30,469 bases of DNA from IMG/VR virus record IMGVR_UViG_3300033064_005166, positions 1 through 30,469 of that record. One strand, given 5' to 3'. The DNA is from a virus. The notes below the pieces were generated by a model that was given only the letters and a program-made list of their open reading frames with translations, had not been told where the DNA came from and did not search any database. The translations under genes were made by a program, and so were the position numbers. Below are positions 4,360-20,035 of the stretch, one piece after another; position 1 is the first letter of the stretch, and each line of letters begins with the position of its first letter.

Positions 4360-4483
4360 AGAAACAAGACACGTATATAAACACGGCACTTCAAGGTGGT
4401 GTTGTATATGTATTGATGAAGAACAACGAATGAGGATAAAAGATGACAAAAGAAGGACCCAAGAGAAGAATAAAGAGATTTGA
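4322..4483 (+). CDS. Small zinc-ribbon-like protein
   Basis: 53 aa (MEDYTIRDCDLCKETRHVYK...), overlapping the NinG-like gene by 38 nt and the next gene by 41 nt. It has CDLC near residue 9 and CCIC near residue 27, a four-cysteine treble-clef-like set, then a basic tail (RMRIKDDKRRTQEKNKEI). The start follows AGAAGGAG. The overlaps in three frames make it a candidate rather than certain. Confidence 0.5.
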   Translation: MEDYTIRDCDLCKETRHVYKHGTSRWCCICIDEEQRMRIKDDKRRTQEKNKEI

Positions 4484-4799
4484 GAAGTATAATTGTTCTG
4501 GTAAGTTAAGGGTTCAGGTTAATGTAGATGATGCTGAGATAAGCGAAATAATGCTTATCACTAAGAAAGGTGGTTGCACATATAATCTTCAGTTAATAGG
4601 CAGGTTATTGACCTTTTTATTAGAGTGCAATATAGATGTTAAATACCTATTACAGATACTTGATGATAACGACCCCTGTCCTGCTGTTATAATGAGGCAA
4701 AAAAGAGATAACTTGCCCATAGAAGAGTGTGGGGTGGGTGGGTGTAGCAAGATTATCAAACAAGCAATAGAGGAGAAACTCAAGGAGATAGAAAAGTGA
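4443..4799 (+). CDS. TSCPD-domain protein (ribonucleotide-reductase C-terminal-like)
   Basis: 118 aa. The sequence follows the TSCPD domain pattern seen at the C-terminus of B12-dependent ribonucleotide reductases and in stand-alone proteins: GKLRVQVNVDDAEISEIML (beta hairpin), GGCTYNLQLIGRLLTFLL, then LLQILDDNDPCPAV, and finally GGCSKIIKQAIEEKLKE. Three Cys-containing turns are kept (GGC, DPCP, GGCS). Stand-alone phage copies are known but their role is not. It could assist a reductase or bind nucleotides; no reductase catalytic domain lies in this window. Confidence 0.65.
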   Translation: MTKEGPKRRIKRFEKYNCSGKLRVQVNVDDAEISEIMLITKKGGCTYNLQLIGRLLTFLLECNIDVKYLLQILDDNDPCPAVIMRQKRDNLPIEECGVGGCSKIIKQAIEEKLKEIEK

Positions 4800-4806
4800 G
4801 GGATAA

Positions 4807-4992
4807 ATGGAAAATAAGTTTATAACTATTACAGTAGAGAATAGCGACGGAACAAAGATGTCTCAACAATTACATTATGATAGTGATATTTGGGACTGGG
4901 CTGAGACATTTAAAACTATAATGATATGGTTGACATTTACTCCAAAATCTATAGAGAATATTATGAGGGACAAATATGATGAAGAAGCCTAG
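4807..4992 (+). CDS. Small hypothetical phage protein
   Basis: 61 aa (MENKFITITVENSDGTKMSQ...). It looks like a beta hairpin followed by a helix (DIWDWAETFKTIMIWLTFTP). The DIxDWxETFKTIM...TFTPK arrangement is one I associate with small conserved phage ORFs of unknown function. GTGAGGGA lies upstream. It overlaps the next gene by 17 nt. Confidence 0.55.
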   Translation: MENKFITITVENSDGTKMSQQLHYDSDIWDWAETFKTIMIWLTFTPKSIENIMRDKYDEEA

Positions 4993-5191
4993 AATATTCT
5001 ATGTAATACATCCTACAAAGTATAATGACTATGATATATTAGCAATAGGGGATAAGAAGATGTTAAGGAAGTTATCAAAGGAATATGACTACTTCCATTA
5101 TATAGCTAGTATTCCAATAGTTATATTAGATACTTGTGATACTATTAAGTGCGCTTTGGAGTGTGTTGAGCATTTGAAAGGAGTAAGATGA
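4976..5191 (+). CDS. Small hypothetical protein
   Basis: 71 aa (MMKKPRIFYVIHPTKYNDYD...), alpha/beta looking, with two C-terminal Cys (DTCDTIKCALECVEHLK). Starts inside the previous gene; ends with an ATGA overlap to the following gene whose ribosome site (GAAAGGAGTAAG) lies within this gene. Not recognised. Confidence 0.5.
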   Translation: MMKKPRIFYVIHPTKYNDYDILAIGDKKMLRKLSKEYDYFHYIASIPIVILDTCDTIKCALECVEHLKGVR

Positions 5192-5469
5192 AACCCGAGA
5201 AAGAGTTGAGAGAGATAATAGAAACAAGAGGTCGTCTTGTTGATTGGACTTATAAAGATACTAAAAATCATAATCATTATAAAAGAGAATTAAACCAACT
5301 TATTACAGAAATCAAAGACTGGGCTGTGAGTAAGTTGGAGAAGAAGGGTAATTTTATAGATGTTTCTAGTTTGCCAGCTGATTGGAATAAAAGAGATAAT
5401 GATTTTATAAAATATGGTCATAGACAATGCCACTATCTATCCAGCAAGAACATCAAGGAGGAGAGATGA
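5188..5469 (+). CDS. Charged hypothetical protein, member A of a duplicated family
   Basis: 93 aa. It opens MKPEKELREIIE, has EIKDWAVSKLEKK in the middle (residues about 42-54) and closes with RQCHYLSSKNIKEER. All three segments recur in the next gene (member B), with matching DNA, so the pair arose by duplication. ATGA couplings occur at both ends. No catalytic motif is seen. Function unknown. Confidence 0.6.
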   Translation: MKPEKELREIIETRGRLVDWTYKDTKNHNHYKRELNQLITEIKDWAVSKLEKKGNFIDVSSLPADWNKRDNDFIKYGHRQCHYLSSKNIKEER

Positions 5470-5915
5470 ACATAATAAAAGCAATAGAATATTTAGAAAA
5501 TGCAGAGATAAATTGTCATAATATTAAAAGAATTGGATTACCACTTCTTCAAATAGTCAAAGAACAAATACAATCTGCACTTAAAGAATTGAACGAAGAT
5601 GAGGAAGAAGGGAGTAAGATGAAACCCGAGAAAGAGTTGAGATTAGATGATATATTAGAAGAATTAATATATAAACAATGTAAAACTATTGAACAATTAT
5701 CACTTGACCAAGCTATCCAACAAATCAAAGACTGGGCTGTGAGTAAGTTGGAGAAGAAGAAAGATTGTGGAGAACATCAAACCCACTATATTCAAGATGA
5801 ATTTTGTTATACTTGTAACAAATCTTTAAGCGAAGAAGAATATAATAAAGTTTATAATTATAAATTCAACCAATGCCACAACCTATCCAAGAAGAACATC
5901 AAGGAGTCAAATTGA
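5466..5915 (+). CDS. Charged hypothetical protein, member B, with a probable internal start
   Basis: 149 aa from ATG 5466, right after AGGAGGAGAG and overlapping the previous stop. Residues 1-48 are unique (NIIKAIEYLENAEIN...). From Met52 (ATG 5619) the text repeats member A: MKPEKELR, then QIKDWAVSKLEKK, then NQCHNLSKKNIKE. The DNA just before Met52 (AAGGGAGTAAG) also repeats the ribosome site of member A, so a shorter 98-aa product may be made from 5619. It contains an extra CGEH...CYTC stretch, a possible zinc site. Likely a fusion of a short leader ORF to a duplicated copy. Confidence 0.6.
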   Translation: MNIIKAIEYLENAEINCHNIKRIGLPLLQIVKEQIQSALKELNEDEEEGSKMKPEKELRLDDILEELIYKQCKTIEQLSLDQAIQQIKDWAVSKLEKKKDCGEHQTHYIQDEFCYTCNKSLSEEEYNKVYNYKFNQCHNLSKKNIKESN

Positions 5916-5921
5916 TAATCA

Positions 5922-6026
5922 GGGGATGTCGCCGAGTGTATTCGCCAGACGTATTCAAAGTGCATAGGCGGAAAGGACTATAATCTTAAGATTTGTTGAA
6001 CGGCTGGAACAACAAACGACATCTCC
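5922..6026 (+). ncRNA. Candidate structured RNA (three-stem, tRNA-like 3' end)
   Basis: This gene-free interval (5916-6052) is closed by a 10-bp stem with one G-U pair: GGGGATGTCG 5922-5931 with CGACATCTCC 6017-6026. Inside are a 6-bp hairpin stem (TTCGCC 5941-5946 with GGCGGA 5967-5972, one G-U) and a perfect 7-bp hairpin (TTTGTTG 5992-5998 with CAACAAA 6010-6016) that abuts the closing stem directly. The 3' side continues ACCACCA. The segment looks more GC-rich than its surroundings. It is not a normal tRNA: the T-loop consensus is missing and the stem lengths are wrong. Strand is assumed from gene direction. It might be a degenerate tRNA, a ribozyme or a regulatory RNA; no known class was recognised. 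Confidence 0.4.
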
Positions 6027-6052
6027 ACCACCAAAAATATAATGGAGGAGAG

Positions 6053-6229
6053 ATGAAGAAAACTTGTGAAGGTTGTCGTTATATAAAAATAAAAACAGGT
6101 GAAATGGGATTGGGTTCTTCTTCTTTATTGTCGCCCTGTATTATTTGTGGTTGTTGTAGGTTAGCTATAGATAAAATGTATGATATTGCGGTAGCAATCA
6201 ATAAATTATTTAAAGGAGACCCAAGATGA
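6053..6229 (+). CDS. Small Cys-rich protein
   Basis: 58 aa, ATG 6053 behind TGGAGGAGAG; the longer frame from 5993 runs into the structured RNA and is rejected. Cys pattern: CEGC near the start, then CIICGCC in the middle (SPCIICGCCRLAIDKMYD), six cysteines that could hold zinc. The stop overlaps the next start by ATGA. Function not recognised. Confidence 0.55.
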   Translation: MKKTCEGCRYIKIKTGEMGLGSSSLLSPCIICGCCRLAIDKMYDIAVAINKLFKGDPR

Positions 6230-6915
6230 CCCTAAAAGAACGGATTGAGGAGATAGCTTGGAATTATTTACACACAGTTACCTTTGCACACGACAATGAA
6301 CCCAATGAATCTCATAGGCAAGTAATATGTAAGCAAAAAATACCAGAACTAATCACTGATATTCTCAAGGCGATAGAAGAAGAGGGCTACATCAAACCTA
6401 CAGAGGATAAAGGGTTGGAGGAGTTAATAGGAACTTTTGTATTGGAGAATCAATCAGCAAGACAAGCAGGGAAGAATACTAAATATGCTAAAGAACTTGC
6501 CAAACAAATCTCTGCTGGCTACATCAAGAAAGAAATCCTAATAGAGCAACAAAGAATTAACAATGCAATACTGGCTGATAAATGTGATGAGTTGGATAAG
6601 TTTGAGAAAGACTGCACCAAAAAATCAGATACCAGAGTTTTACCTTGTAAACATCTTGCCTACAAAACCTTGAATAACAATATTACAGAGCTATTCATTA
6701 ATGGTGAAGAATGGGTTAAGAAATCTAAAATTGAGGTGGATGAAGGGAAGATGGCAAAAGAAATTAGGATACCGATTACACAGGCTTGTGCTTCTATATT
6801 TGAATATAGCTTAAGCGAACATGGTATTACTCAGTTAGTTTTAAAAAACACAATAAAACAATGTGTAAATAAATGTTCCCACGCCATAGCCCAACACAGA
6901 AAGGGGAAAAGATGA
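6226..6915 (+). CDS. Hypothetical protein with LKERIEEI / TDILKA module
   Basis: 229 aa behind AAAGGAGACCCAAG. The N-terminus (MTLKERIEEIAWNYL) and ELITDILKAIEEEGYIKP (residues about 40-57) are shared with the next gene and with the reverse-strand gene at 9517-9795. The rest is long charged helix with scattered Cys (KCDELDKFEKDC, VLPCKH, QACASIFEY). No enzymatic motif was found. The C-terminal half may be a separate domain joined to the shuffled module. Confidence 0.6.
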   Translation: MTLKERIEEIAWNYLHTVTFAHDNEPNESHRQVICKQKIPELITDILKAIEEEGYIKPTEDKGLEELIGTFVLENQSARQAGKNTKYAKELAKQISAGYIKKEILIEQQRINNAILADKCDELDKFEKDCTKKSDTRVLPCKHLAYKTLNNNITELFINGEEWVKKSKIEVDEGKMAKEIRIPITQACASIFEYSLSEHGITQLVLKNTIKQCVNKCSHAIAQHRKGKR

Positions 6916-7160
6916 ATCTAAAAGAACGGATTGAGGAGATAGCACAAAAGTTAAGAGAATCTATTATGGTTGAAGCTGAGTCAAATTATGATTATCTAGA
7001 AGATTATACAGTAGACCAAGCTACCACCGACATACTCAAGGCATTTAGGGAGGACGTAGAAGAGAAGAAGTTAATTGATTGTAATGTTGAATATGAAAAT
7101 ATAGATGTTAATGCCTATAAGAATGATGTCCTACAAGAAATTATAGAGGAGATAGAATGA
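6912..7160 (+). CDS. Hypothetical protein with LKERIEEI / QATTDILKAF module
   Basis: 82 aa. ATG 6912 follows AAGGGGAAAAG and overlaps the preceding stop (ATGA); the track-length start at 6873 has no such site. It opens MNLKERIEEIAQKL and has VDQATTDILKAF in the middle; the tail is acidic (DVLQEIIEEIE). The first 26 coding bases after ATGA-A are the same as in the preceding gene, and the QATTDILKAF DNA is nearly the same as in the reverse-strand gene at 9517. Function unknown. Confidence 0.6.
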   Translation: MNLKERIEEIAQKLRESIMVEAESNYDYLEDYTVDQATTDILKAFREDVEEKKLIDCNVEYENIDVNAYKNDVLQEIIEEIE

Positions 7161-8101
7161 GTTATGTTTCTGTTGTTATCCCCCACCATACAGGCAGGCT
7201 TATTTATGATTGCCTACATTCACTCAGAGATGAAAGAGTAGAAAAGATTGTCTGTTCCTCTACACCCACCATCTTCCCTAATGTAAGGTCTGTATATACT
7301 CCATTAAACGAACCCACCCACAAGAGAAACAAGGGCGTTAAGTTGTCTATGGGCGATTATATCTGCTTTTTAGATGATGATGTAACTCTTTGTATTCTTT
7401 GTATAAAAAATATGCAGAGGTATTTAGACTGGCACAATGACGTAGGTATGGTATTTGCCACTCTTTTTCGCACAGATGAAACATTAGATTCTATCGGAGT
7501 ATATTTAAACTGGACTGGTTTCTTGATTGAGAACACAAAGCGTCCCGCCTACCCCACACCCATATTAAGTGGTAAGGGTGCTTGCTGTATGATTAGAAAG
7601 AAACTCTTTGATGATATAGGTGGCTTTGATGAGGACTTTGTTATCTATGGAGAAGAAACAGACCTGTCTTGGCGTGTGTGGTTAGCAGGTTATAAAGTAA
7701 TGCAACTACCTTTTGCCACTGCTATTCACTGCGCCGAAAGCAAAGACAAGTCTTATTATAATCCCGAATACATTTACTATCACGGCTGTAAAAACTATAT
7801 TACTATGTTAATCAAGAATTTAGGGCTATGGTATATGCCTATCGCACTCATTAACTTTTGCCTATGGGCATTTACAGGCGTCTTATTTCTGTTTAAGTCG
7901 CCTAAAAAGGCGTTTTGGATATTTCAAGGGCTTTGGTATAATATAGTTAACCTGCCACATATCCTTAAAAAGCGAAATAAAATACAAAAAGAAAGAGTCC
8001 TAACTGATACAGAACTCTTTCCTTATGTTTACACCTCAACAGGAATTAAATATTATATGACTCGCCTTTGGGAATATCTATTCTCTCCTTTGAAGCTATA
8101 A
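7157..8101 (+). CDS. Glycosyltransferase family 2
   Basis: 314 aa. The GT-A fold is clear: SVVIPHH strand 1, HKRNKG, then FLDDDV (Asp73-75) as the metal/nucleotide-sugar binding DxD site, SGKGACCMIRK, and GGFDEDFVIYGEETDLSWR (residues 155-173), the acceptor-side ED motif of rhamnosyl- and similar transferases. The C-terminal hydrophobic stretches (MPIALINFCLWAFTGVLFLF) could associate with the membrane. It transfers a sugar from a nucleotide donor; the acceptor could be host surface glycan, phage DNA or a virion protein, which cannot be told here. It is the last forward gene before convergent transcription, and its 3' end overlaps the reverse gene at 8046-8216. Confidence 0.85.
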   Translation: MSYVSVVIPHHTGRLIYDCLHSLRDERVEKIVCSSTPTIFPNVRSVYTPLNEPTHKRNKGVKLSMGDYICFLDDDVTLCILCIKNMQRYLDWHNDVGMVFATLFRTDETLDSIGVYLNWTGFLIENTKRPAYPTPILSGKGACCMIRKKLFDDIGGFDEDFVIYGEETDLSWRVWLAGYKVMQLPFATAIHCAESKDKSYYNPEYIYYHGCKNYITMLIKNLGLWYMPIALINFCLWAFTGVLFLFKSPKKAFWIFQGLWYNIVNLPHILKKRNKIQKERVLTDTELFPYVYTSTGIKYYMTRLWEYLFSPLKL

Positions 8102-10202: not shown

Positions 10203-10559
10203 ATGAATGAGAAAGAAGCAAAGAGGCGTTATAACGCCCAACGCAAACATAAAGATGCTCTTGTTGAACTCAAGGGCAATAGGTGTGCTTTATGTGGTGG
10301 AGTATATCCTACGTGTTGTTATGATTTTCACCACTTAAACCCAAAATTAAAAGAAAAGAATATTGCACAATATGCACAAACTAAAAAAGGATTTGAAAAG
10401 GCAAAGCAGGAACTCTATAAATGTATGTTGCTTTGTTGTAATTGTCATCGGCTGATTCACGCTTGGGGTGGATTCTATTTGAACGGCGACCTTCGAGTCC
10501 TTAAAATTAAACCCAAGTGGAGTCAGCCAGCAGATAAGAAACTACTGGAAGATTTTTAG
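10203..10559 (+). CDS. HNH endonuclease
   Basis: 118 aa, ATG 10203 behind AAAGGAAGGTCGCT. CALCGG (residues about 28-33) and LLCCNCHRLIH (about 77-87) supply the zinc ribbon, and YDFHHLNP carries the His-His that starts the beta-beta-alpha metal catalytic core. This is the small phage HNH type. It is far from the terminase and so more likely a free-standing homing or host-nicking nuclease than a packaging partner, though some HNH proteins act in packaging. It borders the long non-coding region, a usual place for mobile HNH genes. Confidence 0.8.
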   Translation: MNEKEAKRRYNAQRKHKDALVELKGNRCALCGGVYPTCCYDFHHLNPKLKEKNIAQYAQTKKGFEKAKQELYKCMLLCCNCHRLIHAWGGFYLNGDLRVLKIKPKWSQPADKKLLEDF

Positions 10560-12425: not shown

Positions 12426-12454
12426 GGGAACTTGTCTACAAGTTAAGGAGACAT

Positions 12455-12565
12455 ATGGCTAAAAAAAAGAAGGGTGCTTCCCCGTGGAAGGGATATTCTC
12501 CCGAAGAGAAAAGGCAGTATGATTTACAGTTTGGAGCTAAAAAACACAAACGTGAAAAGAAGTGA
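12455..12565 (+). CDS. Very small basic protein upstream of terL
   Basis: 36 aa (MAKKKKGASPWKGYSPEEKR...), ATG 12455 behind TTAAGGAGACAT. Lys/Arg rich with a WKGYSPEEKRQYDL core. Its TGA overlaps the GTG start of the terminase (GTGA 12562-12565), so the two are translationally coupled. Function unknown. Confidence 0.55.
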   Translation: MAKKKKGASPWKGYSPEEKRQYDLQFGAKKHKREKK

Positions 12566-14677: not shown

Positions 14678-16852
14678 ATGATGAACCCAATCCAAATAGA
14701 TATAAAAGAAGATATGCAAAAACTCCTTGTAGAAGTTTGTATTGACGACTTCAAAAGGGCAGAGGATGCTCGCAATGCCAGAGACTATGGAGTAGATTCA
14801 AAAGGGGTAGCATTTACTTTTGATTCTAAATTAGACGAACTCACAGATATGTTTTATGGTAATAGAAAACCAAAATCAGTTCCCTGGAGAAATTGTTCTA
14901 ATCGCTCTATGAAAATAGCTATGGCTATTTTAGAGATGCTTCACTCAAGGATGTTTTCTGCTATTTGGAATGAGGACTTAGTGCGTTGGATGCCTGGTGA
15001 AAGAACCGACAAAGAAAAGGTAGACCGAATCAATAAGTTTATGGATTGGTGGATACGTGTTCACATACGTATGAAGAACTTCTTTGACAAATGGACAAAG
15101 GTAGTTACTGGATTTGGGGATTGTCTTACAGAAATAAGTTGGGATATTAAATACTACGACAGGGGAGAAACCGAAGAAACTCCCATAACAGATGAGTTTG
15201 GATTACAGTTATTTGAACAGGACGGGACACCATCCGTAAACAAAGAAAAGAAATTTAGGATAGAAGAAAAAACTAAGTGCGAAATTATACCACAAAAAAG
15301 CATTTATTTCCAAGAAGCCCAAAAAAGTATATATGATGAACCCGTTATTATTAAGCTTCGCTATCTTTATTCTGATTTGGAGGAGATGGAGAAAGACGGA
15401 AAAGTAGTTAACATCACCACAGAACTAAAGTCTAAAATTGAAGACCGCCTTAATGCCCAATACAGCGATTCCACAGACGAAAACTTAGAAATTATTAAAG
15501 AAGCCAAATTAAGAAATACACCAGTAGATGTCCTAAAGATTTACAAAAAAATAGATATAGACAGAGATGGTTTTCCAGAAGATTTAAGAATTCTTATAGA
15601 CCCTGACAATAGAATTTATTTAGGTGCTGTTGCCATTAAAGATATTACCAAGAATGGCAAGAGACCATTGGATTTTACAAAGATTAACGACCTTATAGAT
15701 AGACCTGACGAACTTGAAGGATTAGGCATATTGGAAATGGTTAAGCCCTTAGCCGATGAATTAGACGCTATATTCAATCAGTTGACTGACGCTAATACTC
15801 TGGGAGTGCTTAGACCATTCTTTTATGACCCATCGGGAAGTTTAGTTCCACAGAATATTACTTTAGCCCCAAACAAGGGAATACCTGTTCCTGACCCACA
15901 AAGGAATGTTTACCTACCTGATTTTAACTTACCCACAGAAAGATTATTTATTGCAATGAAGACCGTGCTGGAGTTTATTGAAAGGCTTACAGGTGCCTCT
16001 TCTTACGTAATGGGTAAGGAGTCAGAGGTTGTGGGTGGTTCTGGAACAGCTACAAGAACACAGGCTATTGTTATGGCTTCAGAGCAGAGATTTGCCATAC
16101 CTGCTCAGAGATTAAGAGAGGGTTGTGCTCGGATACTTACAAAAATTTTAGACCAAGTCCAAAAGAATATACCACCAGGATTAGAAACCAGGGTATTAGG
16201 TGAAGATGGAGAACCTATTTTCCACGGCAATGAACTTTCAGAAGAAGGATTATCTACTGAATTAGATGCCTATATACTTGAAGACGCTTCTATGGGTTCT
16301 CAAAATACAGAACGTCAGTTAGCAGTATTTTTATATCAGATGTTAATGCAAAATCCCTTGGTCGCTTCAGACCCCATTAAAATTTATAGGGCTACGGCTA
16401 ATTTACTTAAATCCCATAGATTTGAACCAACAGAATATCTGGGACCAGAACCAGATATGAATGACCTGGATTCTCCCGAAGAAGAAAATACTAAAATACT
16501 TCAGGGGGATTTTGAAAAGGTAAGACCGACAATGGTAGAAAACCATATGATGCACATTCAAACGCATCAAAAGGTCTTACAATCGCCAACATTAGCAGTG
16601 GTAAATCCTGAGATGATTGAACAGATTATGCAATATACTCAATCTCACGTTCAGGAACATATGCAGATGATGCAACAGATGATGGCGATGCAACAGTTAG
16701 GAGGAAAAGGTGGACCAGGATTACAAACAGGAACAGCTCAAGGACCTGAAGGAATTCAAGGAACACAAGGGGTGGAAAATCTTCCAGGACCTGTCGGGCA
16801 AATGGCTAGAACAAAAGAACAAGGAACTAGTAGTCCAGCTCCGTCAACATAA
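14678..16852 (+). CDS. Portal protein
   Basis: 724 aa; ATG 14678 behind TAGGAGTAA (14681 also possible). The dodecameric portal at the capsid vertex is the DNA entry channel and terminase docking site. Pattern support: MDWWIRVHIRMKNFFDKW and TGFGDCLTEISWDI in the N-terminal half, the PLADELDAIFNQLTDANTLG stem helix, FIERLTGASSYVMGKESE and RTQAIVMASEQRFAIPAQRL in the clip/wing region. Length and layout fit large podovirus-like portals. The last 60 residues are Met/Gln rich, then collagen-like G-x-y (GGPGLQTGTAQGPEGIQG). The position between the terminase genes and scaffold is diagnostic. Confidence 0.85.
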   Translation: MMNPIQIDIKEDMQKLLVEVCIDDFKRAEDARNARDYGVDSKGVAFTFDSKLDELTDMFYGNRKPKSVPWRNCSNRSMKIAMAILEMLHSRMFSAIWNEDLVRWMPGERTDKEKVDRINKFMDWWIRVHIRMKNFFDKWTKVVTGFGDCLTEISWDIKYYDRGETEETPITDEFGLQLFEQDGTPSVNKEKKFRIEEKTKCEIIPQKSIYFQEAQKSIYDEPVIIKLRYLYSDLEEMEKDGKVVNITTELKSKIEDRLNAQYSDSTDENLEIIKEAKLRNTPVDVLKIYKKIDIDRDGFPEDLRILIDPDNRIYLGAVAIKDITKNGKRPLDFTKINDLIDRPDELEGLGILEMVKPLADELDAIFNQLTDANTLGVLRPFFYDPSGSLVPQNITLAPNKGIPVPDPQRNVYLPDFNLPTERLFIAMKTVLEFIERLTGASSYVMGKESEVVGGSGTATRTQAIVMASEQRFAIPAQRLREGCARILTKILDQVQKNIPPGLETRVLGEDGEPIFHGNELSEEGLSTELDAYILEDASMGSQNTERQLAVFLYQMLMQNPLVASDPIKIYRATANLLKSHRFEPTEYLGPEPDMNDLDSPEEENTKILQGDFEKVRPTMVENHMMHIQTHQKVLQSPTLAVVNPEMIEQIMQYTQSHVQEHMQMMQQMMAMQQLGGKGGPGLQTGTAQGPEGIQGTQGVENLPGPVGQMARTKEQGTSSPAPST

Positions 16853-16970
16853 GTTAGATGAAGCTTATGGCACACAAAGGTGGATTGACGGGTTTTTATA
16901 TAGAGAAATAATTTTAGAAGACCACATCAAGGAGTTAATAGTCCCCGAAGAGGAGATTCCAACTTATTAA
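16710..16970 (+). CDS. Overlapping hypothetical gene starting inside the portal gene (GTG start)
   Basis: 86 aa from GTG 16710 behind an exact AGGAGG at 16698-16703. The first 143 nt overlap the portal 3' end in another frame. The non-overlapping part (QLRQHKLDEAYGTQRWIDGF then LYREIILEDHIKELI) reads as a good helical protein ending PEEEIPTY. No other in-frame ATG, GTG or TTG exists downstream in the ORF, so the overlap seems real. Possible small head accessory protein; function not known. Confidence 0.6.
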   Translation: MDQDYKQEQLKDLKEFKEHKGWKIFQDLSGKWLEQKNKELVVQLRQHKLDEAYGTQRWIDGFLYREIILEDHIKELIVPEEEIPTY

Positions 16971-16990
16971 GTTGAGGAAAGGAGAATAAA

Positions 16991-18481: not shown

Positions 18482-19102
18482 ATGGCAAACACAAATAAAT
18501 TCTGTGGATTGCGACCTATATATCCTTATATCAGAGCACAAGTATACAAGCACGTAACGGGCGTACCTGTTTTTATGTATCAGCCAGCAACATTAAATAA
18601 TGGCGGATATGCCGAATTAGCAGTTATGGACGGAACCACTGCTGGTGAAGCTCTATTGGGTTCAGTTGTCGGCATTTTAGGCGGCGATTGGTCTCCTTTG
18701 AGTGTATCAGAAAGTGGTTACGCACCTGCGAATCCAGCAGCAGCATCAGTGGATGCTAATGGTTATATGAATGTGTTGATTGCAGATTCACCAGAACAAC
18801 TCTTTTTAATACAAGAGACAACTGATGGAACAGCTTTAACACAGGCAGCAGTCGGGTTAGGAACAGTACCGTTTTGTGTTACCGCAGCTTCTGGTAGTAC
18901 AATCTCTGGTATAAGTACAGTACATATCGGTTCAGCAACTACAGTAATGGCAGCACCGCTTTCAAACCTTAACTTGCAGTTAGTCAAGTTATGGGATAAA
19001 CCAGACAATGCTTTTGGCGCATATGCCAAATGGATTGTCAGAATTAACGACCACCAATTCAGTAGAGCAGGTGCTTATCTTGAATTAGGTGAATTATTAT
19101 AA
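18482..19102 (+). CDS. Probable capsid decoration or accessory protein
   Basis: 206 aa behind AATAAGGAGTAAGTAA. Rich in Ala, Gly, Ser and Thr, with short beta-type segments (VVGILGGDWSPLSVSES, ATTVMAAPLSNLNLQLVKLW). The composition resembles phage structural proteins on the capsid shell. It precedes the major capsid gene by only 12 nt, which fits a decoration or co-assembled protein. The N-terminus (NKFCGLRPIYPYIRAQVYK) is distinctive but not recognised. Confidence 0.55.
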   Translation: MANTNKFCGLRPIYPYIRAQVYKHVTGVPVFMYQPATLNNGGYAELAVMDGTTAGEALLGSVVGILGGDWSPLSVSESGYAPANPAAASVDANGYMNVLIADSPEQLFLIQETTDGTALTQAAVGLGTVPFCVTAASGSTISGISTVHIGSATTVMAAPLSNLNLQLVKLWDKPDNAFGAYAKWIVRINDHQFSRAGAYLELGELL

Positions 19103-19114
19103 GGAGAATAAATC

Positions 19115-20035
19115 ATGAACAGGTCAACTTTTAATAAGGCTGTCGTTCCTGGTTTGTTCGCCTTTATGATTCAAGGCTATCGTCCCGCTTCTACAGAAGT
19201 TAGTTGGAGTGGTTTTGTTAGCGCGAGAACATCAAAGAGAGCATACGAGGAATGCGCCTACGCAGGTGGATTAGGGATTTTCCCTCACAAGCCTGAAGGC
19301 GATGCAATAACCTATGATGAAATTCTACAAGGTCCAACAAAGAAATTCGTACATAAGACTTATTCGTTAGGTATTAAGTTATCAGAAGAGTTAATTGAAG
19401 ACTCTTTATATCCTGATATTCCAACGACAATGAGGTCTTTAACCGAAGAACTTGGTAGGGCTGCGAGAGAAACAAAGGCACTATTGGTTTGGGATATGTT
19501 AAACAATATAACATCTACCACAAATCATACTGGTGCTGATACGTTGGCTTTAGCAACAGCAAGCCATACTTACATCACAGGTGGAACGTGGAGTAATCTA
19601 TTAAGTCCAGCAGCAGATTTATCTGCTACAGCATTACAGACTTGTATAGATAACTTCGAAACAATAAAAGACGAATCAGGTAGGTATCAAATTTTAAAAG
19701 CTAAATACATCATTGTTCATCCGAACAATGCGTGGAAGGCAAAAGAGCTTTTACAATCTGGTTACGACCCTGAAACAGCGAATAATGCTATTAACGTATT
19801 AAAGGAGAAAAATCTCCAGCTTGTTGTCAGTCCATATTATACTGACACTGATGCTTTTACATTAGTAGCAAAACCAGCAAATAGAGAGTCTGGTGTCATC
19901 GCTTTTGACAGAAGAAAACTTTCTTTTGCCAAAGATGGTGATTTTGAGACCGGTGACGCAAAATTTAAGGGTAGCTTTAGGTTTAGCGTTGAATGTGCCC
20001 ACGCTGGAAATTTATATCATTCTGGCGGAGGCTGA
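19115..20035 (+). CDS. Major capsid protein, HK97-fold (Mu gpT-like)
   Basis: 306 aa behind TAAGGAGAATAAATC. Patterns of Mu gpT-type capsid proteins: PEGDAITYDEILQGPTKKFV (E-loop and spine region), THKTYSLGIKLSEELIEDSLYP, TEELGRAARETKALLVWDML (long helix) and later LKAKYIIVHPNN plus LVVSPYYTDTDAF. It ends with RFSVECAHAGNL. It lies after the scaffold and decoration genes. HK97 fold and gpT-type are inferred from these patterns; I did not compare structures. Confidence 0.8.
   Translation: MNRSTFNKAVVPGLFAFMIQGYRPASTEVSWSGFVSARTSKRAYEECAYAGGLGIFPHKPEGDAITYDEILQGPTKKFVHKTYSLGIKLSEELIEDSLYPDIPTTMRSLTEELGRAARETKALLVWDMLNNITSTTNHTGADTLALATASHTYITGGTWSNLLSPAADLSATALQTCIDNFETIKDESGRYQILKAKYIIVHPNNAWKAKELLQSGYDPETANNAINVLKEKNLQLVVSPYYTDTDAFTLVAKPANRESGVIAFDRRKLSFAKDGDFETGDAKFKGSFRFSVECAHAGNLYHSGGG

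Follow-up and report, generated by a model that had tools for sequence, protein, structure and literature searches.

What kind of sequence occupies the structured 105-nt interval (5922-6026, + strand) that separates two early genes of a phage, and does it control the gene that follows? The window, meaning the whole 30,469-nt stretch analysed here, represents part of the genome of an uncultured tailed phage, in which the terminase large subunit lies at 12562, the portal at 14678 and the capsid at 19115. Near the element, the early genes are short and on the + strand, and most of them overlap or abut. The upstream gene (5466..5915, + strand; 149 aa, no confident family), the C-terminal half of which is a paralog of gene 5188-5469, has its TGA stop at 5913-5915, which leaves 6 nt to the closing stem of the element. 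The downstream gene, and presumed target, is a 58-aa Cys-rich ORF (6053..6229, + strand) with CxxC and CxxCxCC motifs, possibly metal-binding, for which Pfam, PHROGs and the phage collection gave no match; its Shine-Dalgarno sequence and start codon (GGAGGAGAGATG) lie at 6044..6055 (+ strand) and its stop codon shares bases with the start of the following ORF (6226). The gap that separates the stop codon (5913-5915) from the start codon (6053) measures 137 nt with 44% GC; further non-coding gaps of more than 100 nt, by our choice of genes, are found at 1059-1323, 12426-12561 and 16853-16990, all with GC below that of the element's gap.

Elsewhere in the window, we noted a pentapeptide-repeat protein (444-1058) and a family-2 glycosyltransferase (7157-8101) with relatives of 37-39% identity in L011 and L013, which likewise sit upstream of terminase in a similar position. 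The small early ORFs include paralogs that share N-termini (MKPEKELR, LKERIEEIA), middles and C-terminal tails, with up to 97% DNA identity, and the repeat pairs 5176-5211/5607-5642, 5294-5346/5707-5759 and 6223-6257/6909-6943 fall among them. This pattern of sequence suggests that the paralogous ORFs arose by cassette-like shuffling.

Fold and composition of the interval

A preliminary description had proposed three stems for this interval, and all of them are present where it placed them: 1) a closing stem P1 of 10 bp (5922-5931/6017-6026, + strand), with 6 GC pairs and 1 GU pair, formed by the 5' strand GGGGATGTCG and the 3' strand CGACATCTCC; 2) a hairpin P2 of 6 bp with one GU pair (5941-5946/5967-5972, + strand), the 20-nt loop of which contains a weak inner stem; and 3) a hairpin P3 of 7 bp (5992-5998/6010-6016, + strand) with the 11-nt loop AACGGCTGGAA. 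P3 directly abuts P1 as described, ending at 6016 where the 3' strand of P1 begins at 6017, and the P1-closed fold is predicted to be a three-way junction. A long-range pseudoknot between CCG at 5932-5934 and CGG at 6001-6003 was also considered, but its 3 bp are too few for a claim.

Overall, the fold is modestly more stable than chance, as judged by a z score of -1.94 to -2.08 against shuffled sequences, with 7 of 200 shuffles equally stable. The exact interval 5922-6026 has a folding energy of -29.1; in a scan of the whole window in 5-nt steps, the nearest sampled position (5921, one base off, -25.8) ranks 826th among 12,146. The unusual part of the element is its long closing stem: 10-bp closing stems with at least 6 GC pairs and at most 1 GU pair number 2 on the + strand of the window vs. 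2 in total in 10 whole-window shuffles, and 1.2% of 1000 gap shuffles gave a stem with 10 bp or more and a span of 90 nt or more. As a separate observation, local folds at 18601-18745 and 10426-10550 (about -36 to -41 kcal/mol per 105 nt), both within predicted ORFs, surpass the element in stability.

The higher GC content that had been suspected for the interval is borne out at 46.7%, compared with a mean of 34.8% among 105-nt windows in 4400-8000, only 0.14% of which attain the value of the element. Coding across the interval was considered and rejected: all three forward frames are interrupted, and two joined-peptide searches for likeness to phage proteins returned chance matches only.

Predicted pairing with the downstream start codon

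Within the 3' strand of P1, CATCTC (6020-6025) is a perfect complement of the AUG-containing GAGATG at 6050-6055, and the neighbouring CC and CCA are able to pair with the Shine-Dalgarno GG and TGG. The resulting alternative hairpin over the Shine-Dalgarno sequence and start codon (6020..6055, + strand; -9.5 kcal/mol) and P1 are mutually exclusive because CATCTC serves both pairings. This hairpin is the strongest among 38 sampled start regions of the window, a set that we picked ourselves from the ORF list and in which the position of at least one start (5466) is wrong by one base. For 5915-6075, the predicted energies are -35.7 kcal/mol with P1 closed and -31.4 kcal/mol with P1 open; a ribosome terminating at 5913-5915 would extend to roughly 5924-5928, and masking the bases up to this point in the model turned an ensemble dominated by P1 (0.98) into one dominated by the sequestering stem (0.76-0.95). 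A strong start-codon hairpin appeared in 2.7% of 1000 dinucleotide shuffles of the gap, and the long-range 10-bp stem and strong start-codon hairpin appeared together in 0 of 1000 gap shuffles. The exclusive choice between a closing stem and pairing of the ribosome-binding site and start codon, which marks a translational switch, is present here in computed form only; these properties, calculated on one sequence, match the look of such a switch without demonstrating one.

Based on these features, we tentatively favor the interpretation that the interval is an orphan cis-acting element controlling translation of the 58-aa ORF at 6053. Among the readings considered, this is the best supported, narrowly ahead of an inserted spacer that folds by chance, and from its sequence the element qualifies as a modest candidate overall. 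We surmise that it would lie within an early polycistronic mRNA, presumably transcribed through the element, and would modulate translation of the 58-aa ORF. With P1 closed, the strand at 6017-6026 would be kept off the start codon, leaving the latter open in a permissive state in which the Shine-Dalgarno sequence is masked by a weak hairpin only. Opening of P1, which a ribosome at the stop codon 5913-5915, protein binding or the loss of a stabiliser of the junction might bring about, would allow CATCTC at 6020-6025 to pair with GAGATG at 6050-6055, hiding the Shine-Dalgarno sequence and AUG in a putative non-permissive state.

In favor of this cis-acting reading, the element is bracketed exactly by a stop codon and a Shine-Dalgarno sequence amid mostly overlapping or abutting genes, and its high GC content stands out in an AT-rich region. 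Searches for structured noncoding RNAs make use of this property, and GC-rich intergenic segments of AT-rich genomes are an established place of discovery for them (PMC6429828). Against it stand several observations: 1) the Shine-Dalgarno sequence is partly paired in the P1-closed model as well; 2) the stability of the fold is just ~2 sd from that of shuffled sequences; 3) the start hairpin that ranks second in strength is found at the paralogous junction of gene 5466, a junction without such an RNA, and the complementarity may therefore partly come with a repeated gene-tail module; 4) a promoter-like -10 element, TATAAT (6038-6043), could initiate transcription downstream of the element, such matches being not above chance; and 5) the element is a single sequence for which no homolog was found.

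With respect to the last point, the sole other carrier is a near-identical contig, 3300032731_000305, in which the RNA is unchanged. Searches of viral contigs, with the proteins of the neighbours 6226-6912 and 6053-6226 as queries and with portal and terminase loci taken with 10-kb flanks, recovered dozens of related contigs, in which the early region was not conserved where reached. BLAST of the element against phages and plasmids gave chance matches only, while for exact and gapped DNA patterns in viral and genome contigs, the non-self matches inspected share nothing past the pattern and the others are without a full-length model match. A single-sequence covariance model yielded nothing convincing in ~0.57 Mb of related loci, 28 whole viral records and ~800 bacterial genomes of two phyla picked without knowledge of the host; its best non-self match (L023, E = 0.54) has two closing pairs broken and most of the 3' half missing.

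Gene-tail repeats and competing explanations

The preliminary description had the element end in ACCACCA, like the 3' end of a tRNA. The letters are present, at 6027-6033, and thus fall just beyond the end of the interval at 6026. They are explained by a 35-nt direct repeat, D2, with copies beginning at 5441, 5887 and 6028, since the third copy starts there. Copies 1 and 2 each form the 3' end of a small gene, the two genes being paralogs, and copy 2 (5887..5906, + strand) is a gene tail ...SKKNIKE with GGAG; copy 3 (6028..6062, + strand), which opens with CCACCA, is a decayed gene tail plus ribosome-binding site, where the upstream gene's frame reads TTKNIMEER* vs. SSKNIKEER* in copy 1. The 16 nt 5' of the Shine-Dalgarno sequence are identical to the tail of gene 5188-5469 at 11 of 16 positions (composition-shuffle p = 0.0035), and 0.07-0.18% of the 16-mers in the window match that tail equally well. 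The structured interval sits between copies 2 and 3, the space between which it exactly occupies, as though a gene-tail junction had received it by insertion or shuffling. In more general terms, CCA-like letters beside a stem may derive from a repeated gene tail and not necessarily from a tRNA.

This arrangement speaks for the strongest competing explanation, which we regard as possible if somewhat less probable than cis-acting control: a non-functional spacer, inserted or shuffled between repeated gene-tail copies during rearrangement of the small paralogous early genes, that folds by chance. The placement of 5922-6026 between D2 copies, the decayed tail ahead of the Shine-Dalgarno sequence and the fold z of just about -2 would all suit such an origin, whereas the joint rarity of the stem and start-codon complementarity among gap shuffles, together with the position of the segment as the GC-rich extreme of its region, would not be expected from it.

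The inverted repeats at both edges, the foreign GC content and the flanking repeats also recall a small mobile or insertion-sequence-like DNA relic of 105 bp, with P1 as the terminal inverted repeat (GGGGATGTCG vs. GGAGATGTCG, 9/10). We consider this unlikely, given that no second copy was found in the window or in the searched phage, plasmid and viral collections, whereas MITEs and insertion sequences are recognized by several copies with the same ends; in addition, the flanking repeats have diverged (14/20) and are seemingly older than a simple target duplication. Less likely still is a trans-acting phage RNA (a small RNA, decoy or tRNA-like molecule) processed from the early transcript; the compact closed fold and 3' ACCACCA would be in keeping with it, but tRNA and Rfam matches are absent, no intrinsic terminator was found on its strand, and the ACCACCA is accounted for by the repeated gene tail. 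A more far-reaching version of the switch reading, which we also consider improbable, is a kind of phage RNA switch not described before, perhaps containing a new aptamer, that would sense ribosome occupancy at the upstream stop or a ligand and free the anti-start-codon strand from the closing stem, shutting the next gene.

The preliminary description could not place the element in a known RNA class and suggested a degenerate tRNA, a ribozyme or a phage regulatory RNA. The first part holds: Rfam is empty at the gathering score and ARAGORN gives no match, the sole Rfam match at E up to 10 being an irrelevant chance snoRNA (E = 9.4) on the opposite strand. Of the three suggestions, the first two gained no support, as evidenced by the lack of any Rfam tRNA (RF00005) or tRNA-Sec match at E up to 10 with permissive filters, or of any match to a known ribozyme family in Rfam; a tRNA/tmRNA search of the window and its relatives also found none. 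Like a tRNA, the element has a closing stem followed by CCA-like letters; unlike one, it forms no cloverleaf with a T-arm, a T-loop motif being absent from both strands as had been noted, and its CCA-like letters belong to a decayed coding repeat. With only ACCACCA and GCCGAGTG, which resembles a D-arm, on the other side, a degenerate tRNA or member of a catalogued ribozyme class is highly improbable, and these known classes are essentially excluded. The third suggestion, a phage regulatory RNA, is plausible as the leading reading, but without a match to a catalogued phage RNA or riboswitch family.

Relation to known translational controls

Translation-coupled attenuators and intercistronic structures that sequester the Shine-Dalgarno sequence are a recognized class of control. 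The element resembles these in that a terminating upstream ribosome is predicted to alter the choice between two exclusive structures; in contrast to them, this ribosome is predicted to shut the downstream start instead of opening it. Translational riboswitches and anti-Shine-Dalgarno switches, as in bacteria and phage Melnitz, are likewise multi-stem structures in which the 3' strand of the closing stem competes for the ribosome-binding site and start codon. The element differs from these in having no Rfam aptamer match, no homologs and no ligand hinted at by its target gene, and in being intercistronic, starting 6 nt past a stop codon. Few riboswitches are known from phages; one is the glutamine riboswitch of phage Melnitz (PMC9004378). 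If real, the element at 5922-6026 would count as an orphan regulator located in the early region of an uncultured lineage of tailed phages, and would join the few known cases in which structured RNA exerts control within phage mRNA.
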